A stretch of DNA of 48,938 nucleotides from Opitutaceae bacterium (GTDB lineage: Bacteria; Verrucomicrobiota; Verrucomicrobiia; Opitutales; Opitutaceae). Below are positions 20,296 to 35,764 of this stretch, in pieces; the stretch's first letter is position 1; each line of letters starts with the position of its first letter. The stretch is taken from the NCBI GenBank assembly GCA_027485815.1, contig JAIXQE010000112.1, positions 1 to 48,938 on the forward strand, in the 5' to 3' direction. The notes beneath the pieces were generated by a model. That model was not told the origin of the DNA, did not search any database, and saw only the letters and a list, made by a program, of their open reading frames with translations. The position numbers were made by a program, and so were the translations under genes.

Positions 20296-20463
20296 CTAGG
20301 CGGCGGTCACGCGCGGCGCGGTGGAACGCCGGGCGCGGCAGGCGTCGGAGCAGTAGCGCACCTCCTCCCACACCTTCGCCCATTTTCGGCGCCAGACGAA
20401 GGGCCGGCCGCACACGGCGCAGTCCTTCGTCGGCAGGTCAGCCTTGCGGCGCATCTTGGGCAT
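20296..20463 (-). CDS. DUF2256 zinc-ribbon-like small protein
   Basis: Protein of 55 residues with the DUF2256 pattern: [20 protein letters not shown], then [20 protein letters not shown]. The two CxxC-type pairs (CAVC and CSDAC) form a probable zinc-binding knuckle. The start at 20463 gives the standard length; an upstream extension adds a non-conserved stretch. Function is unknown. DUF2256 genes are often near cryptochrome/photolyase-like genes in other bacteria, but none is seen here. It is convergent with the dehydratase gene (20 bp). Confidence 0.88.
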
Positions 20464-20468
20464 CGCGC

Positions 20469-20496
20469 ACGCAAACCGGCCCGCCCGGCGGCGCAA
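20469..20496 (-). promoter_or_regulatory. Twin TTGC boxes upstream of the DUF2256 gene
   Basis: On the minus strand TTGCGC (20496-20491) and TTGCGT (20474-20469) are separated by 16 bp and end 5 bp before the ATG. If used as a promoter the transcript would be leaderless or nearly so. Confidence 0.35.
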
Positions 20497-20503
20497 GTTG
20501 CCG

Positions 20504-21214
20504 TTACACGCGGAACGCGATGATGGTGCCCGCCACGCCGACGATTTCCCGGAAGCGGCCATCGCGCGTCGCCTCGAAGATCGCGCGCGTCACCCCATCC
20601 GCCCGGCTCCCGAAATCGTGGAACGCGATCACGCCCCCTGGCTTCACGAACGGCGTCCAGGCCGCGATGTCCGCCGCGCAGGCGGCGTGGGAATGGTCCC
20701 CGTCGATGAAGATCAGGTCGATCGCGCCGCGGCGCGCCGCGAGGTTCCGGGCCGCGGCGAGGGAGTCGCTCACCACCGGCTCCATCCGCGCGGCGAAGCC
20801 GAGGGCGGCGGCGTTGGCGCGAAAGATCTCGAGGGTGCTGTTGGCTCCGAGCCGGCGGAAGTGGCGCTGGTACCAGGCGGAGTCCTCCCCGCAGGTGGAG
20901 AGGCCCTGGAAGTTGTCCACCGCGAGGATCCGCGCGTCCGGCCCCCGCAGGCCCGCCGCGAGGAAACAGGTCGAGGCGCCCATCCAGGAGCCGACTTCCA
21001 CGACCTGGGCGTCGGCCGGGGCATCCGCGGCCAATTGGTAGAGGTAGCCGCGTTCCGGGAAGCTGCCCATGTCGTCCCGGGTGAAGTGCCGCGCGACGCG
21101 GCGGAACTCGTCCCAGTCGAGGTCGGGCCGGCGCCGGCGCGCGCCGCGGAGGTAACGCCCGCATTTCTGGGCAAAGCGCAGGTCGCGGACGAGGGGCCAG
21201 TGCTTGAACGCCAT
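20504..21214 (-). CDS. Class I SAM-dependent methyltransferase (Methyltransf_24-like)
   Basis: Methyltransferase-fold protein of 236 residues. The SAM-binding motif I is [19 protein letters not shown] (about residues 71-89), followed by [11 protein letters not shown], and the metal/catalytic-type [19 protein letters not shown] and [12 protein letters not shown] segments. This arrangement is typical of the class that includes cephalosporin hydroxylase-like and macrocin O-methyltransferase-like proteins, often linked to surface glycans. The acceptor is unknown. It lies upstream of the DUF2256 gene on the same strand, 40 bp away, and downstream of the SRPBCC gene. A T6 run just before it on the coding strand (around 21251-21256) could mark the end of the previous transcript. 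Confidence 0.8.
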
Positions 21215-21275: not shown

Positions 21276-21752
21276 TCAGAGAATTTCCGCGTCGCCCGCG
21301 CCCGGGAAGGCCTCCCGCACCTTCTGCGCCCGGAGGGCGAAGATCGTGCGCAGCTTCCCGCCGATCCACACCGCGTGCCCCAGCCCGCCCAGCCAGCCCC
21401 AGCCTGGGTCGTAGGTGACCAGATCCGTCATCTCCACGCCCCCCGCCACGGGGCTGAACCGGTGCTGATGGTGCCACAGGCGGTACGGGCCGCAGCGCTG
21501 CTCGTCCACGAAGTACTCGCCCTCGCGCACGTGCGTGATCTCGGTCAGCCAGCGGGTCTCGATGCCCGGCACGATGCCGACGCGGTATTCGATCAGCTGG
21601 CCGGCGTACATCCGCGGCGCAACGTCGCCGACGATGCGGAAGCGGAGCTCCGGCGACGTGAGGCGGTCGAGGTTGCGCGGGGTGGAGAAGAACTCCCAGA
21701 TGGCGGCCGGCGAACCGGGAATGAATTGGCGGCGCTGGAGGCGGTAGAGCAC
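21276..21752 (-). CDS. SRPBCC-family (START/Bet v1-fold) protein
   Basis: Protein of 158 residues starting at GTG 21752. The SRPBCC fold is indicated by RRQFIPGSPAAIWEFFSTPRN near the N-terminus, GQLIEYRVGIVPGIETRWLTEITHV in the middle, and the C-terminal helix GHAVWIGGKLRTIFALRAQKV. The DRLTSPELRFRIV segment resembles the YfcH/cyclase-like ligand-binding subgroup that often accompanies epimerases. It probably binds a hydrophobic ligand; there is no direct clue which. It is divergent from the hypothetical gene at 21836. No ATG fits the conserved start, so a GTG start was chosen. Confidence 0.8.
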   Translation of the reverse strand: MLYRLQRRQFIPGSPAAIWEFFSTPRNLDRLTSPELRFRIVGDVAPRMYAGQLIEYRVGIVPGIETRWLTEITHVREGEYFVDEQRCGPYRLWHHQHRFSPVAGGVEMTDLVTYDPGWGWLGGLGHAVWIGGKLRTIFALRAQKVREAFPGAGDAEIL

Positions 21753-21799
21753 AACGGTGGTTCGTTCCGCGGCCGTCGCCGGATGCGGCGGGCCCGGCC

Positions 21800-23523: not shown

Positions 23524-24003
23524 TCAGGCGAAGCGATCGAGCGCGGCACCGGTGAGCCGGCACAGCTGCCACTCCGGGAGCCGCTGCGCGCCGAGTCGCT
23601 CGTAGAACGCGATCGCGGGCTGGTTCCAGTCGAGCACGTTCCATTCGAGGCGCCCGCAGCCGCGGGCGCGGGCCAGGCGCGCCACGTGGCGGAGGAGGGC
23701 GCCGCCGATGCCGCGGCCGCGGAGCGTCGGCGTGACGAAGAGGTCCTCCAGGTGGAGGCCGGGGCGCGCGAGGAAGGTCGAGTAGGTCGGGAAGAACAGG
23801 GCGAAGCCCGCGGGCTCGCCCTGCCAGAGCGCGAGCACGCATTCGGCGGCCGGCGTGCCCGCGGGGGGAAAGAGGGTGGCGCGCAGGCGGTCCTCCGTCG
23901 CCTCGACCTGGTCAAGCAGGCGCTCATAGGCCGCGAGGTCGCGGATGAAGCCGAGGATGACCGGCACATCAGCCGGGTTGGCGGAGCGCAACGCGAGGGA
24001 CAT
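23524..24003 (-). CDS. GNAT-family N-acetyltransferase
   Basis: Acetyltransferase of 159 residues. The acetyl-CoA site appears as LEDLFVTPTLRGRGIGGALL (R/Q-x-x-G-x-G/A) around residues 85-104, followed by RLEWNVLDWNQPAIAFYERLGA, typical of the diamine acetyltransferase-like subgroup (SSAT relatives). The acceptor may be a polyamine or other small amine; this is not certain. It lies 75 bp beyond the second CFA-like methyltransferase on the same strand and may be the last gene of that unit. The 127-bp region between it and the Hpt gene holds no gene. Confidence 0.85.
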   Translation of the reverse strand: MSLALRSANPADVPVILGFIRDLAAYERLLDQVEATEDRLRATLFPPAGTPAAECVLALWQGEPAGFALFFPTYSTFLARPGLHLEDLFVTPTLRGRGIGGALLRHVARLARARGCGRLEWNVLDWNQPAIAFYERLGAQRLPEWQLCRLTGAALDRFA

Positions 24004-24078: not shown

Positions 24079-25089
24079 TCAGGGCTTGCGGAACCGGTAG
24101 TGGCTGACGATCCACTCCGCGCCGTGGCGGTAGCCCCAGAGCTCCGCGCACGCGAGGTAGAAGACCCGCCAGTAGGCCCACCAGCGGATTTCCTGGCCGG
24201 CGCCGTAGGTCTGGCGGAACAGCGGGAGGATCTCGGCGCGGTGCCGGTCCATGTTCTGCAGCCAATGCTCCGCCGTGCGCTGGTAATGGGTGCCGTCGAC
24301 CTTCCAGTCGGCCTCCAGCCGGAGGTCATCCTGAAAGGCCAGGAGCAGGTCGTGCGACGGCATCTGGCCGCCGGTGAAAAAGTACCGCGACATCCAGTCC
24401 GTCTGGTCCCGGGCCACGAAGTGATACGCCAACCGCTGGTGGGTGAAGATGTGGACGAACAGCAGGCCGCCGGGGCGGAGCCACGCCGCCACCTTCGCCA
24501 GCAGGCGCTGGTAGTTCTTCATGTGCTCGAACATTTCCACGGAAACGACGCGGTCGAACTGCGCCGCGGGCAGCTCGAGGGTGTTCATGTCCTGGGTGAG
24601 GATGCGGACGTTGGTGAGCCCACGGCGGCGGGCCTCCGCCTCGATGTGTTCCCGCTGGGTGCGCGAGTTCGAGACGCCGGTGATGCGGGCGCGTGGGAAG
24701 CGCTCGGCGAGATAGAGGGAGAGCGAGCCCCAGCCGCAGCCGAGCTCGAGGATGTCCTGCCCGTCCGCGATCTGCGCGCGCTCGACGTAGAGCGCGAGCA
24801 TCAGCTCCTCGGCCTGGTCGAGCGTTTCGGTGCCGGTCGGGTAGAGGCAGCCCGAGTACTTGAGGCGGCGGCCGAGGCAGAGCCGGTAGAACTCGGTCGG
24901 CACCTCGTAGTGCTGTTCGTTGGCGGCCCGGGTGTCCTCGGCGATCGGCCGCGTGCGCAGGTCGGCGACGTACGCCTCGCGCTGGTAGCGGCCCGTCTCC
25001 TCGCGCAGCCGCTGCGCCAGCAGGCGCCGGATGCCCCAGCGGAGCAGCGGGTCGGGCAGGAGGTCCTTTTCGAGCAGGGTATCGATCAT
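24079..25089 (-). CDS. SAM-dependent methyltransferase, CFA-synthase family (second copy)
   Basis: Protein of 336 residues in the cyclopropane-fatty-acid synthase superfamily. Landmarks: [27 protein letters not shown], the SAM motif [35 protein letters not shown], and [20 protein letters not shown]. The HYEVPTEFY and KYSGCLYP segments resemble the CFA-like group also found in eukaryotes rather than bacterial Cfa. Its substrate may be unsaturated phospholipid acyl chains. It is shorter than Cfa and lacks its N-terminal lipid-binding extension. Its ATG overlaps the DUF1295 stop (ATGA), so the pair is translationally coupled. Confidence 0.85.
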
Positions 25090-25892
25090 GGGGAAGGCGG
25101 GGCCGACGGGCGGCGGGGGAACCACGGGACGAACGCGCTGGTGGTCGCCTGATAGCGGCGGTAGGCGTCGCCCTTGCTCCGCAGCGACTGTTCCTCGGTC
25201 AGCGGGATGCCGGTGACGCGCAGGAGCAGGTAGAGGATGGTCACGGGCGCGGTGACGGCGACCCAGCCGCCCGGCGAGCCAAGGGCGAGGAGGAAGAAGG
25301 CGACCCACACGAGCCATTCGCAGAAATAGTTCGGGTGCCGGCTGTACCGCCACAGGCCGCGGTCGCAGACGGCGCCGCGGTTCGCCGGGTCGCGCTTGAA
25401 GGCGGCGAGCTGGGCGTCGGCCAGCGCCTCGCCCAGGAGCGCGATCACCCAGAGCAGCGCCCCGGCGAACTCCAGCGGGTGCCACGCCGGCGCGGGATTG
25501 CGCGCGACCAGCAGGAAGGCGAGTCCGAGCCAGACCACCGAGGCCGCCTGCAGCTGGAAAAAGCCGAACATCTTCGGCGCGAAGTTGCCGGCCCAGTCCC
25601 GCCGGAGCAGGGCGTAACGCGCGTCCTCCACCGGGTGGTGGCCCGCCACGCGGCGCAGCAGGTGCGTGCCGAGGCGGAGGCTCCATAGGCCGCCCAGGGT
25701 CGCCACGAGGGCGCGGCGGGGTCCCCAGCCGCCGGCCGCGTACGCGTAGAAGCCCGCAAGGCCGGCGAACGCGTACGACCACGCGACGTCGACGATCCCG
25801 TAGTTGTTCAGCCGTCGCGCGAACAGGTAGAGGGCCGCGAACGCACCCGAGAGGCCGGCGAACGCGAGGAGGAACAGGGCGGCGGCGGACAT
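25086..25892 (-). CDS. DUF1295 membrane protein (steroid 5-alpha-reductase-like)
   Basis: Integral membrane protein of 268 residues with about six or seven helices. It shows the DUF1295 hallmarks [14 protein letters not shown] near residue 28, [15 protein letters not shown], and the C-terminal [19 protein letters not shown] followed by [19 protein letters not shown]. The RHPNYF motif is shared with steroid 5-alpha-reductases and isoprenylcysteine methyltransferases and binds a nucleotide or SAM cofactor. In other bacteria DUF1295 genes cluster with cfa and DUF1365 genes, as here. A reductase role on a fatty acyl intermediate is plausible but unproven. It overlaps the downstream methyltransferase gene by ATGA. 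Confidence 0.88.
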
Positions 25893-25900
25893 CGCGGGTG

Positions 25901-26434
25901 TTACGCCCCGGCCGGCGCCGCGGACGCCCGCCGGAGGCGTCCGGCGGTGCGGGTCAAGGCGGGCACGAGGGGAAGGTACAGCAGCGCCGCCACCAGCGGG
26001 GCGGTCACGAGCCAGGCGGTGAACGCGTGAACGCCCGCCCAGCCGAAGCGCGCGAGGAACTCGCCCCACGAGGCGCCGGCGAAGGCCCCGAGCATCGTGT
26101 CGACGCTGAAGGCGCCGGCCGGCGCGCCCCACAGGCGCTCACCGGCGCGCACGTAGGGCAAGATCAGGAGCAGCTGGAGCGGCCCGAGGAGCTGATTCCA
26201 GCCTTGGAGCAGGGGCTGGTTCAGCCGGAGCGCGATCCCCACGGCGAGGTTGAGCAGCGAGGTGAAGCCGAGGAAGGGGAACAGCGAGCAGACGGTGCCG
26301 ACCGCGAGGGTGGCCGCGAGCTTCCGCGGGGTCACGCCCTGCACCAGTTGGCGCCGGAGGGGGTCGAGCAGGCGCCGGCGCCAGAAGCCCCCGGCGGGCG
26401 GCCCCGGCGGGAGCTCCGGGGAGGGGGCGCTCAT
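25901..26434 (-). CDS. DUF2062 membrane protein
   Basis: Protein of 177 residues with the DUF2062 pattern: a basic amphipathic start ([20 protein letters not shown]), then [31 protein letters not shown]-like and [18 protein letters not shown], and two more helices. The function of this family is unknown; it is often near lipid or glycan genes. Start ATG 26434 overlaps the DUF1475 stop (ATGA). It is followed after 8 bp by the DUF1295 gene. Confidence 0.85.
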
Positions 26435-26826
26435 GCGAGCAGGTAGATGCCCACGCCGGTGGCGGCGAGCAGCGCGGGCAGCACCGGCGACCCGGCGTTC
26501 GGACGCGTGATCACCGGGGTGAGCGACCCATCGGCCGGGATGCGGAACAGCTCCCGCAGGCAGTAGGTCGCCATCGCGAGGTTGCCCAGCGCGAGGATCG
26601 CCACGAGCCACAGCAGGCGCGCGGCCGCCGTCGGCTCCTTCCACGCCACCCACAGGTAGAAGGTCACGAAGCCCCAGTACGCATCCGCCATCGCCGCGAT
26701 GAACCACGGGTGCGCCCAGACCGATCGCGGCAGCTCCGACAACGGCGTGTGCAGGCTCGCCCACACGGTCACCCCGAGCATCGAGGCGAGGATGAGGACG
26801 AAGAGGAGGCGAAGGGCGATGACCAT
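26431..26826 (-). CDS. DUF1475 membrane protein
   Basis: Small membrane protein of 131 residues with four helices (about 3-23, 40-62, 70-90, 112-130). The segment ADAYWGFVTFYLWVAWKE is typical of DUF1475. Its role is unknown. It sits 12 bp after the Cfa-like gene and overlaps DUF2062 by ATGA, so it is part of the lipid-modification unit. The C-terminal half is variable. Confidence 0.8.
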   Translation of the reverse strand: MVIALRLLFVLILASMLGVTVWASLHTPLSELPRSVWAHPWFIAAMADAYWGFVTFYLWVAWKEPTAAARLLWLVAILALGNLAMATYCLRELFRIPADGSLTPVITRPNAGSPVLPALLAATGVGIYLLA

Positions 26827-26838
26827 CGGGGCGGGCGC

Positions 26839-28116
26839 TCAGAGCGCGGGGTTGTTGGCGCGGCTGTGCAGCGTGTGGACGACCGAGATGTTCCGCCCCG
26901 CGAAGGCGGCCTCGCAATAGCAGAGGTAGTAGGTCCACTTGCGGATGAAGCGGTCGTCAAAACCCAGCGCCCGCACCGCGTCGAGCCGCGCGTGGAAGGT
27001 CTCCCGCCACAGGCGCAGCGTGCGCGCGTAGTCGGTTCCGAAGTCATCCAGCGCGTGCAGCGTGAAGCCCCCGGCGTCCGCCAGCAGCCCGTTCATCCGG
27101 TTGAGCGACAACAGCAGCGAGCCGGGGAAGACGTGCTTCTGGATGAAGTCCACCCCGCGGCGGAATTCGTCGTACCGCGCGTCCGGACAGGTGATGAACT
27201 GAAGGGCGACGAGCCCGTGCGGCGCCAGCAGGCGGGACACGGCCTGCGCGAACACCGCCTGGTTGCGGTGGCCGACGGCCTCGAGCATCTCGATCGACAC
27301 GATCTTGTCGAAGCGGCCGGTCAGGTCCCGGAAATCGCGCAGTTGCACGTCGACGCGGTCGGCGAGGCCGGCGGCGGCCACCCGGCGCCGGGCGAGCTCG
27401 TGCTGCGCGGGCGATAGGGTGATCGTGGTCACGTGGCAGCCGCGGGTGCCGGCGGCGTGCAGGGCCCAGCCGCCCCAGCCGGTCCCGATCTCGAGCACGC
27501 GGTCGCCGGGTTGCAGGCGCAGGTGGCGGCAGAGGGCCTCGTTCTTCTCGCGTTGGGCCGCCTCAAGGGAGAGGTCCGGCGCGCCCGCGGGCCAGCGGGC
27601 GGAAGAGTACATCAGCGAGGGGTCGAGCCAGAGCGCGAAGAAATCGTTCGAGAGGTCGTAGTGCTCCGCGATGTTGCGCCGCGCGATCCGCCGGGTGTTC
27701 GGCCGCAGCAGGTGCCCGATCCGGTTCGCCCCGCGCAGGAGGTTCAGCGCCCAGCCGCGCGCCCGCCGCGAGCCCGAGAGGGTCGGCGCCGTCTCCACGT
27801 TGCGGACAAAGTGCGCGATCACCGCCGTCAGGTCCGGCGTCTCCCAGTCGCCGTCCACAAACGCCTCCCCGAAGCCGATGTCGCCCGACCAGAAGCATTT
27901 CCGGAAGAACGCCTCGCGGCGCACGCGGATCAGGGCGTGGGGTCCGGCTCCCGCCGGGTCGCCGATGAGGTGCGCGTCACCGCCGGGCAGCTCCAGCCGC
28001 AGGCACCCGCGGTCCATCCCGGAGAGGGCGTCGAGCACGAGGCGACGGGCGAACGAGGGCTCGGTGGCGCGGGCGGCGGCTGATCCGGGCGAGACGGTGG
28101 TGGAGGGGGAACTCAT
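26839..28116 (-). CDS. cfa: Cyclopropane-fatty-acyl-phospholipid synthase-family methyltransferase
   Basis: Protein of 425 residues, full length for the Cfa family, which transfers the SAM methyl group to the double bond of phospholipid acyl chains at the membrane surface. Visible: the N-terminal lipid-binding part (FWSGDIGFGEAFVDGDWETP), AEHYDLSNDFFALWLDPSLM with SSARW, the SAM motif VLEIGTGWGGWALHAAG, IVSIEMLEAVGHRN and the C-terminal RNISVVHTLHSRAN. The active-site Cys of E. coli Cfa falls at FITCPD here. The amine-oxidase/DUF1365/cfa order suggests the methylation product is further processed, not only cyclopropanated. It overlaps the DUF1365 stop by ATGA. Confidence 0.9.
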   Translation of the reverse strand: MSSPSTTVSPGSAAARATEPSFARRLVLDALSGMDRGCLRLELPGGDAHLIGDPAGAGPHALIRVRREAFFRKCFWSGDIGFGEAFVDGDWETPDLTAVIAHFVRNVETAPTLSGSRRARGWALNLLRGANRIGHLLRPNTRRIARRNIAEHYDLSNDFFALWLDPSLMYSSARWPAGAPDLSLEAAQREKNEALCRHLRLQPGDRVLEIGTGWGGWALHAAGTRGCHVTTITLSPAQHELARRRVAAAGLADRVDVQLRDFRDLTGRFDKIVSIEMLEAVGHRNQAVFAQAVSRLLAPHGLVALQFITCPDARYDEFRRGVDFIQKHVFPGSLLLSLNRMNGLLADAGGFTLHALDDFGTDYARTLRLWRETFHARLDAVRALGFDDRFIRKWTYYLCYCEAAFAGRNISVVHTLHSRANNPAL

Positions 28117-28985
28117 GACGCGGACGGGGCGGACGGGAGCGGGGCGGGCTTGAGGGAGGCGTGGGGCCGGTAAAGATCCCGCTGGTCGGCGGCGCGTGCC
28201 GCCTTGGCGAACCAGGGCACGCGCTTCGCCCACAGCAGGAGGGCGTGCCAGTGAATGAGGGCGATGACCCGCAGCGTGAGCAACGGATACTTGAGGGTGA
28301 ACCACGCGAGGCGGCCGGTGGTGAGCGTGCGGCGCGGCCCGGCAAGGGTGCTGGTGAGGGTGCGCTCCTCGCCGACGTAGTCGTCGATGCGGATGGCGAG
28401 CTGGTCCCCGGGCAGGCGCAGGTGAAAGTCGAACGCGACATCCACGTCCGAGTAGGGGGACACGTAGAACTGCTTCGGCACCCGGAGGCGGAAGACGCCC
28501 CGCCCCGCGTCCGCTGGGTCCGCGGGGACGAAGAACGGCTTCATCTCGCGGAAGGTGTTGGTCACCTCCGCGATGGCGCCGAGCGGCCGCCCATCCCGGT
28601 CGCGGCAGAAGTAGAAGGAGACCGGGTTGAAGAGGTAGCCGGCGATGCGGGGCAGGGTGACTAGCAGCACGCTACCGTCCCCGAGTTCGATCCCGTGGCT
28701 CCGGAGGTAGGCGGCGACGCGCGCCTTGAGCCCGGGGGTGGCGCCGGCGGCGGCCGCGGGCGCGGCGGGGCCGGACGGATGGCGCGGCTCGTCCACGGGG
28801 AGGAAGTCGCGGTCGTGCAACGCGTAGAGGTGGCGGCGGTTGTGGCCGAACAGGCCGATGCGGCGGGGCAGGTCCGGCAACTCGTCGAGATCGAGCGCGA
28901 AGAGGAAGATCCGGTACGCGAAGCGGTGGCGCCGCGGCGAGAACCGGGCGTGCATCACCTCGCATTCGTACAGGCAGGACTTCAT
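28113..28985 (-). CDS. DUF1365 family protein
   Basis: Protein of 290 residues with the DUF1365 signatures: an N-terminal LYECEVMHARFSPRRHRFAY, DLDELPDLPRRIGLFG, LVTLPRIAGYLFNPVSFYFC, EVTNTFREMKPFFVP and KQFYVSPYSDVDVAFDF. The function is not established. It is nearly always coupled to an FAD amine-oxidase-like gene and a cfa-like gene in Proteobacteria, including the photooxidative-stress (RpoE/ChrR) regulon, and the same trio is present here. An Ala/Pro insert (about residues 70-85) is specific to this copy. Start ATG 28985 fits the family N-terminus. A 132-bp gap upstream holds twin TTGC boxes. Confidence 0.9.
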   Translation of the reverse strand: MKSCLYECEVMHARFSPRRHRFAYRIFLFALDLDELPDLPRRIGLFGHNRRHLYALHDRDFLPVDEPRHPSGPAAPAAAAGATPGLKARVAAYLRSHGIELGDGSVLLVTLPRIAGYLFNPVSFYFCRDRDGRPLGAIAEVTNTFREMKPFFVPADPADAGRGVFRLRVPKQFYVSPYSDVDVAFDFHLRLPGDQLAIRIDDYVGEERTLTSTLAGPRRTLTTGRLAWFTLKYPLLTLRVIALIHWHALLLWAKRVPWFAKAARAADQRDLYRPHASLKPAPLPSAPSAS

Positions 28986-29054
28986 CTTCGGACCAGCGTC
29001 GGGACTACGTCCGCGGGGTCGGGGCGGATGCGGGCGCACGGCGGAGGCGGGAAG

Positions 29055-29083
29055 ACGCAACCCGCCCGCGGCGCCGGTGGCAA
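29055..29083 (-). promoter_or_regulatory. Twin TTGC boxes upstream of the DUF1365 gene
   Basis: On the minus strand TTGCCA (29083-29078) and TTGCGT (29060-29055) are 17 bp apart in the 132-bp gap between the FAD protein and DUF1365 genes. This could be an internal promoter for DUF1365-cfa and downstream genes with a leader of about 65 nt. Confidence 0.35.
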
Positions 29084-29117
29084 GGACGCGATCGTGAAAT
29101 CTCCGTGCGCCCGCCGC

Positions 29118-30410
29118 CTAGCCGCGCGCCGCCCAAGGATCGCGGCCCAGAAGCAGCTCCGCCACCCGGACCGCGCTCAGCAGGCCATCCTCGTGGAAGC
29201 CATAGCGTTGCCAGGCCCCGGCGTAATAGGTCTCGGTGGCACCCCGGGCAGACGCGTTCAGCCCAGGGATCTCCGCCTGGGCCCGCACGGCGCCCAGGCT
29301 GAAGAGCGGATGCTCGTAGGCGATGCGGCGCAGCACCCGGGCGGGATCGATCGCTTCGGGTCGCCCGATGCTCACGAAGTAGTTCTCCCGCTCGGAGACA
29401 CCCTGCAGGGAGTTCATCCAGTAATGCGTGGCGGTGGCCACGCGGCCGTCCGGCCCCGGGTTGATCTCGTAGTTCCAGCTCGACCAGGCCAGCCGCGTGC
29501 GCGGCATGACCCGCGCGTCGGTGTGCACGGTCGCGGGGTTGGGCTGATAATGGAATTCGGCGAGGGTGTGCCGCTCGGCCGGGGTCGGATCGGCCAGCAG
29601 CCGCAGCGCCTGATCCCCGTGGCACGCGAGGATCACCCGGTCGAAGCGCGCGGTCGCGCCGTCTGCGGTGGTGATTTCCACGCCGCCGCCCCCACGCCGG
29701 ACCCGCGCCACCGGGCAGCCGGTGCGGATGCGGTCCCGCCAGCCCGCCGTCAGCTTCTCGACGTAGGTGCGGGCGCCGCCCTCGACCGTCCACCACGGGT
29801 GCTGCGTGTGGAGGCCGAGGAAGCCGTGGTTATGGAAGAACCGCAGGAGGGTGGTGGCGGGGAACGCCAGCATCAGCTCCGGCGGGGTGCTCCACACCGC
29901 CGAGCTCATCGGCACGAGGTAAAGGTCGAGGAAGTCCTGCCCGTAGCCGCGGCGCCGCACGAACTCCCCGAGGGATTCCGCGCCGGCCGCCGGATCCTCG
30001 AGCGCGGCCACCGCCTCGCCGTTGAATCGGCTGATCGCCCGCAGCAGCCGCCAGAAGCGCGGGCGCAGCAGGTTGCGGCGCTGCGCGAACAGGTGGTTCA
30101 ACGAGGAACCGCAATACTCCAACCCGCTCGCCGTGTGGCGGACGCTGAACGACATCGAGGTCGGCTTCACCGGCACCGCCAGCTCCCGGAACAGCCGGTT
30201 GAGGTGGGGGTAGGTGACCAGGTTGAAGACCATGAACCCCGTGTCGAAGGCGACCTTCCGGTCGGTCCCCGGCTCGGGGACGTCCACGGTGTGCGAGTGA
30301 CCGCCGATCCGCGGGTCCTGCTCGAAGACGGTGACGTCGTGCGCGTGGCGCAGGAAGTGCGCGCAGCCGAGGCCCGCGATGCCGGAACCGACGATGGCGA
30401 GCGAGGGCAT
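29118..30410 (-). CDS. FAD-dependent amine-oxidase-like oxidoreductase (UfaD-like candidate)
   Basis: Flavoprotein of 430 residues with the dinucleotide-binding start LAIVGSGIAGLGCAHFLRHA, then VFEQDPRIGGHSHTVDVP, FDTGFMVFNLVTYPHLNRLF and a C-terminal GAWQRYGFHEDGLLSAVRVA that closes the FAD site. This is the family annotated as amine oxidase or NAD/FAD-dependent oxidoreductase that pairs with DUF1365 and cfa. In Rhodobacter sphaeroides a member (UfaD) works with methyltransferase UfaM in making methylated furan fatty acids. That precedent suggests desaturation of a methylated acyl chain here, but is inference. It lies 50 bp after the desaturase gene. Confidence 0.85.
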   Translation of the reverse strand: MPSLAIVGSGIAGLGCAHFLRHAHDVTVFEQDPRIGGHSHTVDVPEPGTDRKVAFDTGFMVFNLVTYPHLNRLFRELAVPVKPTSMSFSVRHTASGLEYCGSSLNHLFAQRRNLLRPRFWRLLRAISRFNGEAVAALEDPAAGAESLGEFVRRRGYGQDFLDLYLVPMSSAVWSTPPELMLAFPATTLLRFFHNHGFLGLHTQHPWWTVEGGARTYVEKLTAGWRDRIRTGCPVARVRRGGGGVEITTADGATARFDRVILACHGDQALRLLADPTPAERHTLAEFHYQPNPATVHTDARVMPRTRLAWSSWNYEINPGPDGRVATATHYWMNSLQGVSERENYFVSIGRPEAIDPARVLRRIAYEHPLFSLGAVRAQAEIPGLNASARGATETYYAGAWQRYGFHEDGLLSAVRVAELLLGRDPWAARG

Positions 30411-30460
30411 GGGCGGGAGCGGTGGCGAGAGAGTTGGCGCCGCGGCCCGGGCTTCCGGCC

Positions 30461-31609
30461 TCAGCGGGCGTCCGGCTGGGCGTCGGTCGCGCGCTCGGTG
30501 GCGGGGGCGCCGTCGGCCTTTTCGGGGAGCTTGGTCCCCGCGGCGGTGGCGGTGGCGACGGCGATGGCGGCCGCGGCAGGGACCACCCGTTTAAGCGGGG
30601 AAACGTCGAAGTGGACCTCGCGGGCCTGGCGCGCGGCCGCGATGCTGTGCGCGTGGTCGGCGCGCGCGGCCTCCTCCATCACGGACTTCGGCACGGCCTT
30701 GAGGCCCCAGATGAAGCCGGTCCACGAGAGCGCCTTGAGGCCGTAGTAGGTGAGGTCGAGCTCCCACCAATAGAAGCCGTTGCGGGTGGACGACTGGTAG
30801 CGGTGGTGGTTGTTGTGCCAGCCCTCGCCCAGAGTGATGAGGGCGAGGATGAAGCTGTTGCGCGAGTCGTCGCTGGTGTTGAAGCGCCGGCGGCCCATCA
30901 GGTGCGCCATCGAGTTGATGCAGGCCGTGCCGTGGAACAGCGCGGTGGTGCTAATGAAGAAGCCCCACACGAGCAGCTGCCAGCCGTTCGTGCCCAGCCC
31001 CGGGGCGTGGACCGCGAGGAGCTCGCCGGTGCCGAAGATCGCGAGCCCGAAGAGCAGGGGCACCACCGTATCGAACCGGTTCAGCCACACGAGCTCAGGG
31101 AAGCGCGCGAGATCTTTAATGGTCGAGTAGTCGGTCGGAAAGTTGCGGCGGCTGGTGATCCAGCCGATGTGCGACCACCAGAACCCGTGCACGTGCGGCG
31201 AGTGCGCATCCTCCGGGTCGTCCGAGTGCTTATGGTGGTGCCGGTGGTGGTACGCCCACCAGAGCGCCCCGCGCTGCACTGTCGTGCCGCCCCACAGTGC
31301 GAGCAGGAACTGGCCGGCGCGCGAGGTGCTGTAGGTCTTGTGCGAGAAATACCGGTGGTAAATGCCGGTGACCGCGAACATCCGCACGAAATAAAGCGCC
31401 ACCGCGGTCCAGACCGCCACCGGACTCGCGCCCACCCAGATGACGCCCAGGCAGCCCAGATGCAGCACGATGAAGGGGATGCAGCGCATCCAGTCCACGC
31501 GGTCCGGCTCCTGCCGCAGCAGCGCCGGGTCACCCGGGGTGTAGTCGGAATCGATCCACTGTTTGAGCGCGGTGAGGGGACGGGACAGGCGGGCGGATCG
31601 TTCGGACAT
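30461..31609 (-). CDS. Membrane acyl desaturase (delta-9 type)
   Basis: Integral membrane di-iron desaturase of 382 residues. The three histidine boxes are intact: HRYFSHK, HRHHHKHSDD and GEGWHNNHHRY, and the hydrophobic segments fit four helices. Relatives are acyl-CoA or acyl-lipid delta-9 desaturases that make oleate/palmitoleate-type chains with O2. A C-terminal Ala/Thr-rich tail of about 40 residues (after FDVSPLKRVVP) is an extension. As first gene of the block it could supply the unsaturated chains that the two Cfa-like enzymes modify. Start ATG 31609 is preceded by twin TTGC boxes. Confidence 0.93.
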   Translation of the reverse strand: MSERSARLSRPLTALKQWIDSDYTPGDPALLRQEPDRVDWMRCIPFIVLHLGCLGVIWVGASPVAVWTAVALYFVRMFAVTGIYHRYFSHKTYSTSRAGQFLLALWGGTTVQRGALWWAYHHRHHHKHSDDPEDAHSPHVHGFWWSHIGWITSRRNFPTDYSTIKDLARFPELVWLNRFDTVVPLLFGLAIFGTGELLAVHAPGLGTNGWQLLVWGFFISTTALFHGTACINSMAHLMGRRRFNTSDDSRNSFILALITLGEGWHNNHHRYQSSTRNGFYWWELDLTYYGLKALSWTGFIWGLKAVPKSVMEEAARADHAHSIAAARQAREVHFDVSPLKRVVPAAAAIAVATATAAGTKLPEKADGAPATERATDAQPDAR

Positions 31610-33344: not shown

Positions 33345-34139
33345 TCAGAGGCGGCCGAGGATCGCCTTCACGCGGGTCCAGGCCTCGGCGCGGGCGCGCT
33401 TGTTCGCGTCGGACCCCGCCGGATCCTCGCCCGCGCGCATGAACCCGTGGCCGGCGCCGGCGTAGGTGACAGGCTCGAAGAAGCGTTGCGCGGCCTTCAT
33501 CGCCTGCTCGGTCGCGGGCAGGCCGGCGTTGATGCGGGCGTCGTTCTCCGCGTAGAAGCCATAGACCGGGGCCTTGATCCGGGATACCGCGGCGGCTTCC
33601 GGACCGGACCCGTAGAACACCAGGCCGGCGGCGATCGCGGGGTTGTGGGTCGCGTAAAGGAAGGTCTTGGCCCCGCCCCAGCAGAAGCCGCCGACGACCA
33701 CCTTGCCCGAGCACGCGTCGAGGGCGCGCACGTGCTTCACCGCCGCGTCGAGGTCGGCGTCGATCTGCGCCTGCGGCAGGCCTTGGATCTTCGCCCGCGC
33801 GCCATCGGGGCCGCCGAGGCTCTCGGTGCCGCCGCCGTTCGGGCCCGTCCCCGAGAGGAAATCCGGCGCGATGGCGATGTAGCCGGCCGCCGCGAACTGG
33901 TCGACCATCCCGCGCACCCAGTCGGTGAGTCCGAAGATCTCGTGGATCAGCACCACCGCGGTCGCCTTGCCCTTCGCCTCGGGGAACCCGAGGAAGCAGC
34001 GGACCTGGCGGTCGCCGTGCTTGAGGGTGACCCACTCGAGGTGGCGGGGCGACTGCTCGAGCCGCGCCTTGGCCCAGTCCTGGGCGGCGGCGGTTCCGGC
34101 GGAGAGGGCGAGGGCGGCGGCGAGGAGGAGGATTTTCAT
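33345..34139 (-). CDS. Secreted dienelactone hydrolase-family protein
   Basis: Alpha/beta hydrolase of 264 residues with a cleaved signal peptide (KILLLAAALALSAGTAAAQ). Dienelactone hydrolase features: VVLIHEIFGLTDWVRGMVDQ, YIAIAPDFLSG, the nucleophile elbow VVGGFCWGGAKTFLYA with Cys as nucleophile, the acid in YGFYAENDARI, and the catalytic His in YAGAGHGFMRA. The Cys-His-Asp triad is complete. Real substrates of the secreted members are usually not dienelactones; an esterase role on carbohydrate or lipid esters is likely. It is divergent from the pectate-lyase gene (119 bp). Confidence 0.9.
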   Translation of the reverse strand: MKILLLAAALALSAGTAAAQDWAKARLEQSPRHLEWVTLKHGDRQVRCFLGFPEAKGKATAVVLIHEIFGLTDWVRGMVDQFAAAGYIAIAPDFLSGTGPNGGGTESLGGPDGARAKIQGLPQAQIDADLDAAVKHVRALDACSGKVVVGGFCWGGAKTFLYATHNPAIAAGLVFYGSGPEAAAVSRIKAPVYGFYAENDARINAGLPATEQAMKAAQRFFEPVTYAGAGHGFMRAGEDPAGSDANKRARAEAWTRVKAILGRL

Positions 34140-34163
34140 CGGGGGCACGGGGTGGTTGCGGGG

Positions 34164-34191
34164 AGGCAAGCGGGACCCGGCCTCGACGCAA
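34164..34191 (-). promoter_or_regulatory. Twin TTGC boxes upstream of the dienelactone hydrolase gene
   Basis: On the minus strand TTGCGT (34191-34186) and TTGCCT (34169-34164) are 16 bp apart, 24 bp before the ATG, in the divergent region shared with the pectate-lyase gene. Confidence 0.35.
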
Positions 34192-34258: not shown

Positions 34259-35764
34259 ATGCGCTTCGCCACCCTGCTTGCCCCCCGGTTTGTCCTGACG
34301 CTTGCCGCCGCCACGTCCGTCCTCGCCGCTGCGCCCGCCCCGGCGCCGTTGGCGGAGGAGGCGCGCGCCGGTCTCGCGCGCGCGACTACCTTTCTCCGCA
34401 GTCTGAACACCGGGGGCGGCTACCTCTGGCGCTACTCGCCCGACCTCCGGGAGCGGGCCGGGGAAAACACCGCCACCCCGACGCAGATCTGGGTCCAGCC
34501 CCCGGGCACGCCCGCGGTCGGCCAGGCCTTCCTGCGGGCGTGGGAAGTGACCGGCGACCCCGCCTACCTCGACGCCGCGCAGGCCGCCGCGGATGCCCTC
34601 GCCACCGGGCAGTTGGAATCGGGCGGCTGGGATTACCTGATCGAGTTCGACCCCGCGCTCGCCTCCGCGTGGTACCGACGGACCGATGTCGGCCGGATTC
34701 CGCCCGCCGAGGGGGCGAAGCGGAAGAACACGACCACCTTCGACGACGACAACACCCAGAGCGCGCTGCGGTTGCTGGTGGCGGTGGTGGCCGCCTCCCC
34801 CGCGCCGGGCGGCGAGCGGGAGGCCCGCCTGCGCGCGGCCCGCGACTACGGGCTCCGACGCCTGCTCGAGGCACAGCGCCCTAACGGCGGCTGGCCGCAG
34901 CGCTGGAATGGGCAGCGCGTCGACCCCGCCGATTATCCGGTCCGACCCGCCCGCTTCCCGGCGGATTACCCCCGCGAGTACCCGAAGACCAACTACAACG
35001 GGCACTACACCCTCAACGACAACACGCAGCGCGACTGCATCCTGACCCTCCTGGAGGCGGCGCGCGCGACCGGGAACCCGGAGTACCGCGCGGCGGCGCT
35101 GCGCGGCGTCGACTTCCTCCTGCTCGCGCAACTGCCCGAGCCGCAGCCCGTCTGGGCCCAGCAGTACAACCCGCAGCTCGAGCCCGCGTGGGCCCGCGCC
35201 TTCGAACCGCCCAGCGTCTGTTCGGGCGAGAGCGTCGGCGCCCTCCGGCTGCTGATCGAGATGCACGTCGAGACGGGGGACCCCCGTTACCTCGAGCCGG
35301 TGCCGCGCGCGCTGGCCTGGTTTGACCGCTCCGCCCTCGCATCCGGCCGTTGGGCCCGGATGTACGAACTGGGGACCAACCGGCCGATCTACGGGGACCG
35401 CGACGGCAAGATCAAGTACCGCCTCGAGGACCTCAGCGAGGAGCGCCGCACCGGGTACTCGTGGGAGAGCGATTACGGCGTCCCCAGTCTCCGCCGGCAG
35501 TATGAGGAGGTCCGCACCAAGGGTCGCGACGCCCTGCTGGCGCAGCGCCGGGCCGCCGAGGAGAAGGCGCGTTCCGCCGCTCGGCGTGCCGCTGAGGCCC
35601 GCGCCCTCGAGCCCAAGGTGCGCGCCGCGCTGGCCGCCCTCGACGCCGAGGGCCGCTGGCTCGCGCCGGCCGGCCGTCGCTCCGCCGGCCCCTGGATCAC
35701 CACGTCCGCCTACCTCGCCAACGCCCGCGTGCTGTGCGACTACCTCGCGGCGGTCCGTCCCTGA
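34259..35764 (+). CDS. Secreted pectate lyase-like protein (PL10 family)
   Basis: Protein of 501 residues with a signal peptide (about 1-25). It matches the PL10 pectate lyase pattern, an alpha/alpha-toroid: GGYLWRYSPDLRERAG, TPTQIWVQPPGTPAVGQAFL, LESGGWDYLIEF, TTFDDDNTQSALRLLV with the Asp cluster, EAQRPNGGWPQRWNG, NYNGHYTLNDNTQRDCI, YNPQLEPAWARAFEPPSVC and SGESVGALRLLIEM. It would cleave polygalacturonate by beta-elimination. There is a C-terminal coiled-coil-like extension (about 420-465, Ala/Arg/Glu-rich) not usual in PL10. It is divergent from the dienelactone hydrolase gene and may share regulation. Real substrate might be another uronic polymer. Confidence 0.8.
   Translation: MRFATLLAPRFVLTLAAATSVLAAAPAPAPLAEEARAGLARATTFLRSLNTGGGYLWRYSPDLRERAGENTATPTQIWVQPPGTPAVGQAFLRAWEVTGDPAYLDAAQAAADALATGQLESGGWDYLIEFDPALASAWYRRTDVGRIPPAEGAKRKNTTTFDDDNTQSALRLLVAVVAASPAPGGEREARLRAARDYGLRRLLEAQRPNGGWPQRWNGQRVDPADYPVRPARFPADYPREYPKTNYNGHYTLNDNTQRDCILTLLEAARATGNPEYRAAALRGVDFLLLAQLPEPQPVWAQQYNPQLEPAWARAFEPPSVCSGESVGALRLLIEMHVETGDPRYLEPVPRALAWFDRSALASGRWARMYELGTNRPIYGDRDGKIKYRLEDLSEERRTGYSWESDYGVPSLRRQYEEVRTKGRDALLAQRRAAEEKARSAARRAAEARALEPKVRAALAALDAEGRWLAPAGRRSAGPWITTSAYLANARVLCDYLAAVRP

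Follow-up and report, generated by a model that had tools for sequence, protein, structure and literature searches.

A co-directional gene block in an Opitutaceae bacterium with a probable role in the synthesis of methylated furan fatty acids

The window analysed here, a stretch of 48,938 nucleotides from an Opitutaceae bacterium (contig JAIXQE010000112.1 of assembly GCA_027485815.1), carries eight minus-strand open reading frames (ORFs) running from position 31609 to 24079. They encode a membrane fatty-acid desaturase, a flavin adenine dinucleotide (FAD) protein, a DUF1365 protein, two methyltransferases of the CMAS family, and proteins of the DUF1475, DUF2062 and DUF1295 families (Table 1). 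A sequence-only reading, made without database searches, had described a co-directional lipid-tailoring block with three ATGA overlaps; its coordinates, including all starts and stops, and its family assignments agree with our ORFs and Pfam matches, all eight of which exceed the curated cut-offs. The overlaps join DUF1365 to UfaM (28116/28113), DUF1475 to DUF2062 (26434/26431) and DUF1295 to FufM (25089/25086), and the remaining gaps measure 50 bases (desaturase to FAD protein), 132 bases (FAD protein to DUF1365), 12 bases (UfaM to DUF1475) and 8 bases (DUF2062 to DUF1295). A sigma-70 scan returned no sites, and terminator-like sites numbered four, as compared to 3.8 in shuffles.

Table 1. Genes of the block in order of transcription.
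Feature	Length (aa)	Position	Strand	Pfam match
Membrane fatty-acid desaturase	382	30461..31609	-	PF00487, E 3e-18
UfaD-like FAD protein	430	29118..30410	-	PF01593, E 8e-29
UfaO-like DUF1365 protein	290	28113..28985	-	PF07103, E 3e-71
UfaM-like methyltransferase (first Cfa-like)	425	26839..28116	-	PF02353
DUF1475 membrane-type protein	131	26431..26826	-	PF07343, E 2e-6
DUF2062 protein	177	25901..26434	-	PF09835, E 3e-10
DUF1295 membrane-type protein	268	25086..25892	-	PF06966, E 9e-68
FufM-like methyltransferase (second Cfa-like)	336	24079..25089	-	PF02353

We consider it probable that these genes are clustered for the synthesis of methylated furan fatty acids on membrane phospholipids, a desaturase being combined with the full pathway to mono- and dimethyl furans. 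The steps of UfaM, UfaD, UfaO and FufM have been shown experimentally for alphaproteobacterial enzymes: UfaM (a S-adenosylmethionine (SAM) methylase), UfaD (a NAD/FAD-type desaturase) and UfaO (a DUF1365 protein, with O2 as the oxygen source) suffice for a monomethyl furan fatty acid, and FufM (RPA0924), the 9M5-furan methylase, methylates the furan a second time (PMC7380195). In the block, the desaturase would introduce a cis double bond, which UfaM would methylate with SAM to give a methyl-branched trans-alkene; UfaD (FAD-type, O2) would then add a conjugated double bond, UfaO would close the furan ring with O2, and FufM would put the second methyl on the ring.

Homologues of the three-enzyme UfaM/UfaD/UfaO set are encoded together in the block. 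Compared to the proteins of Rhodopseudomonas palustris XCP, identities are 39% for UfaM, 40% for UfaD, 38% for UfaO and 50.6% for a FufM candidate; across five Rhodopseudomonas genomes, the UfaD-like protein is 39–41% identical to the UfaD-like protein adjoining DUF1365, and the UfaO-like protein 36–39% identical to the DUF1365 protein (rows with less than 60% query coverage and desaturase matches below 150 bits were left out). The sequence-only reading, which had likened the FAD/DUF1365/cfa trio to UfaD/UfaM and proposed a related acyl-lipid pathway, is supported in this respect; what that reading had missed is that DUF1365 is the UfaO family, so that the three-enzyme set is complete (PMC7380195). 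Based on homology, the first methyltransferase is predicted to methylate the double bond, the FAD protein to desaturate the methyl-branched chain, and the DUF1365 protein to be the furan-ring-forming oxygenase. A profile built from 18 DUF1365 rows had no match in the PDB up to E 5, and single-sequence structure predictions were uninformative, with a mean predicted local distance difference test (pLDDT) score of 43.9 for UfaO and 49.8 for DUF1295.

Conservation of the block was analysed in 177 genomes of the order, whose families are denoted f1 (that of the window), f2 and so on. UfaM matches were counted as strong at E 1e-70 or better (five further genomes have weaker ones only) and DUF1295 matches at 1e-50 (two further genomes), and FufM was searched up to E 1e-40. 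DUF1365 and strong UfaM are each found in 65 genomes, strong DUF1295 in 63, FufM in 56 and DUF1475 in 17. DUF1365 occurs together with strong UfaM in 64 of the 66 genomes with either (Fisher p 3e-46; the Fisher tests ignore kinship), with strong DUF1295 in 61 of 67 (p 6e-40) and with FufM in 54 of 67 (p 9e-32), and all 17 DUF1475 genomes carry DUF1365 (p 9e-9). FufM is present in only two of the 112 genomes without DUF1365, and a hand count at the genus level gave 30 genera with both, 3 and 1 with one of the two and 42 with neither (p 1e-16). In 38 of the 52 genomes with both, FufM and DUF1295 share a strand and lie within 300 bases of each other.

The surroundings of DUF1365 were compared in 66 regions, many of which end at contig ends, using bit-score thresholds set by us for each gene. 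UfaD was found in 62 of these regions, UfaM in 52, DUF1295 in 42, FufM in 40, the desaturase in 36, DUF1475 in 19 (by low-score tblastn) and DUF2062 in 12. The sequence-only reading had named conservation of the gene order as a check, and here all eight genes keep their order and strand in 8 of the 66 other regions (f1 and f19) and six core genes do so in 22 (f1, f2, f18, f19 and f24), intervening genes being allowed in both counts, which indicates that the arrangement is not due to chance. Some dispersal of the set is seen in f11 and f21. An alternative in which unrelated lipid genes have come to lie loosely together and share no pathway would account for the absence of DUF1475 and DUF2062 from most of the order's other families and for the 50- and 132-base gaps at the front of the block. 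However, it is hardly credible in view of the order and strand kept by six genes in five families, and of the window's own family, in which the five families tested (DUF1365, UfaM, DUF1295, FufM and DUF1475) are all present in 8 of 15 genomes and all absent from the other seven, one of them congeneric.

Two variants were seen among the regions compared. A DUF2878 gene lies between UfaM and DUF1295 in L084:1195-1779 (-), the one region of this kind scanned with Pfam, with relatives in 10 other f2 regions, and DUF2878 is found in a Cupriavidus cluster as well. UfaM-like frames with one in-frame stop each occur in two f11 genomes (L053 (G049) and G079:C94).

Membership of UfaM in the CMAS family would also fit an alternative in which the products are cyclopropane or saturated methyl-branched fatty acids and not furans, with UfaM adding a cyclopropane or methylene group, the FAD protein serving as desaturase and DUF1295, which is distantly related to double-bond reductases, as reductase. 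Phylogeny of the methyltransferases, named in the sequence-only reading as a possible means of refutation, was assessed in a tree of 114 proteins (quick method, midpoint root). The window UfaM falls with Rhodopseudomonas UfaM in a 62-row group (support 99) that holds neither Escherichia coli Cfa nor the other R. palustris Cfa, the only two Cfa rows, both on long branches, so that the placement of Cfa is unsure. Like E. coli Cfa, the window UfaM belongs to the CMAS family and keeps E239 and Y317; unlike it, it shares only 33% identity with Cfa and, as in all 62 UfaM rows, has E, A and Q in place of G236, H240 and H266. In Cfa, H266 is a bicarbonate ligand within the set E239, H266 and Y317 (PMC11387697), where the window UfaM has E, Q and Y.

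The replacement of H266 by Q was considered as proof of a non-cyclopropane product and dropped, since cotton GhCPS1, which has Q at this position and is fused to a FAD oxidase domain, produces cyclopropanes in yeast (PMC3132707). The cotton enzyme thereby lends the cyclopropane alternative some support, and the E/A/Q signature marks the kind of enzyme, not its product. On the other hand, Agrobacterium oxidase and CPS homologues yielded no cyclopropane in yeast (PMC3132707), the window UfaM groups with Rhodopseudomonas UfaM and away from Cfa, and DUF1365, for which furan closure is the single activity known, accompanies the set, as does UfaD in the regions around it. We therefore regard a furan-free block as unlikely; among the three kinds of product that the sequence-only reading had left side by side, namely cyclopropane, methyl-branched and furan chains, furan is favoured and cyclopropane seems the least likely.

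The second methyltransferase, described in the sequence-only reading as Cfa-like, instead belongs to a FufM/coclaurine N-methyltransferase-like family. For comparison, five Rhodopseudomonas genomes were located via the LH2 alpha chain, a query with the reaction-centre L chain having ranked 6z5r low; 6z5r and 7zcu are presumably R. palustris proteins. In all five genomes a strong CMAS protein adjoins DUF1365, and in four of them a further CMAS protein lies directly downstream of a strong DUF1295, the fifth, R. rhenobacensis, having neither a strong DUF1295 nor its CMAS partner and a weaker DUF1295 only. Published identities to R. sphaeroides UfaM are 26% for FufM (RPA0924) and 38% for RPA3082 (PMC7380195). 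In R. palustris XCP, the CMAS protein beside DUF1295 is 27% identical to the strain's own UfaM over 224 residues, and the other CMAS matches comprise a full-length Cfa with 30.5% identity to R. palustris UfaM, three that match over 88–171 residues only and one without a match. From these marks, obtained with strain XCP in place of CGA009, the strain of RPA0924, we infer that the protein beside DUF1295 is FufM.

The window enzyme is 40.8% identical to coclaurine N-methyltransferase 6gkv and shares a 48-row group of the tree (support 80) with the Rhodopseudomonas protein taken here as FufM. The FufM rows and two plant N-methyltransferases stand on the opposite side from the UfaM group (support 100), and the 48 bacterial rows are set apart from the two plant alkaloid enzymes, but with a support of only 80. 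By sequence, the second methyltransferase is predicted to carry out the second methylation of the furan ring. Bacterial FufM-type enzymes and plant alkaloid N-methyltransferases likely have a common origin, with the direction of descent running either way; Arabidopsis LIME1 we take to be coclaurine-methyltransferase-like. FufM is reported to be 37.87% identical to LIME1 (PMC10940516).

With coclaurine and pavine N-methyltransferases as the nearest solved structures of FufM, the pathway could alternatively end at the monomethyl furan, while the FufM-like enzyme and DUF1295 modify another molecule, e.g., by N-methylation of a lipid head group, and this would agree with Rhodopseudomonas and several f21 genomes, where the DUF1295–FufM pair is encoded away from the Ufa genes. 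Yet the available marks point to the group's Rhodopseudomonas member being the furan C-methylase FufM (PMC7380195), equivalents of E239, H240, H266 and Y317 are present in 48 of 48 bacterial FufM rows whereas 6gkv lacks H266 and Y317 in the same alignment, and FufM is nearly confined to genomes with DUF1365. A pathway ending at the monomethyl furan thus appears quite improbable to us.

As the sequence-only reading had noted, a desaturase is built into the block. The sole two solved relatives found for it are acyl-CoA desaturases (best E 1.4e-24), whose regiochemistry we take to be C9 (delta-9), and its histidines H85/H90, H122/H125/H126 and H265/H268/H269 are invariant across 36 rows. It is predicted to supply the cis-monounsaturated acyl chain. 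If it acts at C9, the furan would be located at C8–C11, as in 7-(3,4-dimethyl-5-alkylfuran-2-yl)heptanoyl chains, compared to C10–C13 in Rhodobacter.

Among the three families without a step in the known pathway, DUF1295 gave matches to ICMT (8e-5) and 3-oxo-5-alpha-steroid 4-dehydrogenase (3e-4) when a 17-row profile was searched against the PDB, which points to a distant relationship with ICMT and steroid 5-alpha-reductases. Its 52 rows share 24 invariant residues, including a RHPNYF stretch, and the protein is perhaps a membrane reductase of the NADPH type. DUF1475 and DUF2062 would be accessories. The link between DUF1475 and the pathway is one of genome distribution only: by hand count, 15 of its 17 matches share a contig with DUF1365 or FufM at a distance of no more than 10 kb, and two lie on another contig; the literature on this family is confined to maize and rice among the matches listed. 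In R. sphaeroides, three other genes of the operon are dispensable for furan synthesis (PMC7380195), which would fit extra genes acting after or beside synthesis.

Several observations weigh against a furan pathway as drawn here. Identities of 36–41% to UfaD, UfaO and UfaM imply that substrate and position may differ, Q at position 266 is no proof against cyclopropane synthesis given the cotton enzyme (PMC3132707), and a second desaturase in the genome means that the one in the block is not the sole possible source of the double bond. The identification of FufM is likewise affected, because the comparison covers seven of the eight XCP CMAS matches, with published values standing in for RPA0924, RPA3082 and the R. 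sphaeroides proteins, and because the XCP protein assigned to the class of RPA3082 shows 30.5% identity to R. palustris UfaM as against the 38% published for RPA3082 and R. sphaeroides UfaM (PMC7380195). The nearest structures to FufM are those of plant enzymes, 11 of the 65 DUF1365 genomes are without FufM, and the Fisher p-values take no account of phylogeny.

The block resembles the UfaM-UfaD-UfaO systems of R. sphaeroides and R. palustris in that the three families stand side by side in the Rhodopseudomonas order. In contrast to these systems, all steps including FufM are found in one block, whereas ufaM is located apart in R. sphaeroides and the FufM class apart in Rhodopseudomonas, and the window differs from the alphaproteobacterial pathway by its built-in desaturase and the lack of a recognised ChrR. 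With FufM (RPA0924) the second methyltransferase shares the tree group, the identity to the Rhodopseudomonas candidate and an adjoining DUF1295, but it is encoded within the Ufa block. It is not a local addition as the sequence-only reading had assumed: among six plasmid stretches hand-picked from 83 plasmid records with DUF1365, those of Burkholderia anthina, Cupriavidus and Rhizobium tropici carry the FAD protein, DUF1365, a UfaM-like gene and the DUF1295–FufM pair, and in four of five Rhodopseudomonas genomes the two genes of the pair are direct neighbours. In Rhizobium CIAT894 the pair is accompanied by a UfaM-like gene reduced to a fragment, while Shinella has the pair without UfaM and Azospirillum the trio without the pair.

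In Chlamydomonas, which was compared by names only, CFA1, CFA2 (alias coclaurine N-methyltransferase), a DUF1365 gene and a DUF1295 gene are induced by singlet oxygen in a SAK1-dependent manner (PMC4067076), and three Arabidopsis proteins matched by their authors to UfaM/UfaD, UfaO and FufM (AtUFAMD1, AtUFAO1 and AtFUFM1/LIME1) are located on lipid droplets (PMC10940516). Judged by the authors' names, plants and algae thus share the four enzyme families, to which the algal set adds DUF1295; both sources support the pathway, and the algal one also the place of DUF1295 beside it. Unlike in the window, the genes are separate, the Arabidopsis counterparts of UfaM and UfaD form one protein, and function is assigned by homology there as well.

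Furan fatty acid genes belong to the core set of the RpoE/ChrR (ECF11) singlet-oxygen regulon of Proteobacteria (PMC6852236), and a sigma factor gene is present in five of the six plasmid stretches and a gene named ChrR in three, in which the DUF1295–FufM pair lies beside them. By contrast, ChrR (TIGR02451) has no match in the window's genome (97% complete), and none of the 177 genomes of the order has a match over the curated cut-off (nine have weaker ones). The absence of chrR proposed in the sequence-only reading thus holds for the genome, while that of rpoE is limited to the 30 window ORFs scanned with Pfam, a subset in which no RpoE-type sigma factor was found, no search having been aimed at RpoE. 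These results suggest that the pathway runs without ChrR in this order.

Genes for extracytoplasmic function (ECF) sigma factors, MerR proteins and B12-binding MerR proteins lie beside the block in some families of the order. B12-binding MerR proteins can be light sensors. One such regulator, L045:6099-7013 (-), adjoins the desaturase of its block (Pfam scan of L045 only), has relatives in three other f24 regions and is possibly a direct light switch; in Vibrio cholerae, the blue-light response is under both a MerR-like protein and ChrR (PMC5241685). Upstream of the desaturase, no common box was apparent by eye in the window's family. In f19, GTCAAAGCAGTTGCG is common to six of seven rows (L062–L067), near an ECF sigma gene, and the seventh has CAGTTGCG, again by eye.

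The neighbours of the block look unrelated: a pectic acid lyase (34259-35764, +), a protein of the dienelactone-hydrolase family (33345-34169, -) and a GNAT acetyltransferase (23524-24003, -). A DUF2256 gene at 20296-20562 (-) lies 3.5 kb past the block, and the plasmids of Burkholderia and Cupriavidus likewise have DUF2256 near their Ufa genes. An ORF at about 21276-21780 (-), SRPBCC-like by eye and without a Pfam match, is 40–45% similar to a small protein of 6 of the 66 regions (f11 and f22).

Furan fatty acids are found in plants and fish as well as in microbes, and in the literature consulted their genes have been worked out stepwise in two alphaproteobacteria only (PMC7380195), the first step having also been shown in E. 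coli for Halomonas UfaM. No description of the eight-gene block was found among the literature matches listed, subscription papers being mostly outside reach; its novelty lies in the arrangement and the families drawn in, not in the kind of pathway. By analogy with Rhodobacter, where this has been shown, the product likely serves as a sacrificial singlet-oxygen scavenger in the membrane. With every proven step up to the dimethyl furan in a single block, the pathway becomes testable in one construct, and the uncharacterised families DUF1295, DUF1475 and DUF2062 are drawn toward furan fatty acid chemistry. When destroyed by singlet oxygen, the furan turns into an ene-dione. Tentatively, and with more doubt than confidence, we propose that DUF1295 and DUF1475 genuinely take part in the metabolism of furan fatty acids wherever they accompany these enzymes, in bacteria, algae and plants, that DUF1295 acts as a reductase on an unsaturated form of the lipid, this reactive ene-dione being the most interesting candidate, and that plant alkaloid N-methyltransferases share descent with a lipid ring methylase. 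If this is true, the block would run a cycle in which a sacrificial membrane antioxidant is both produced and, once spent, cleared away.

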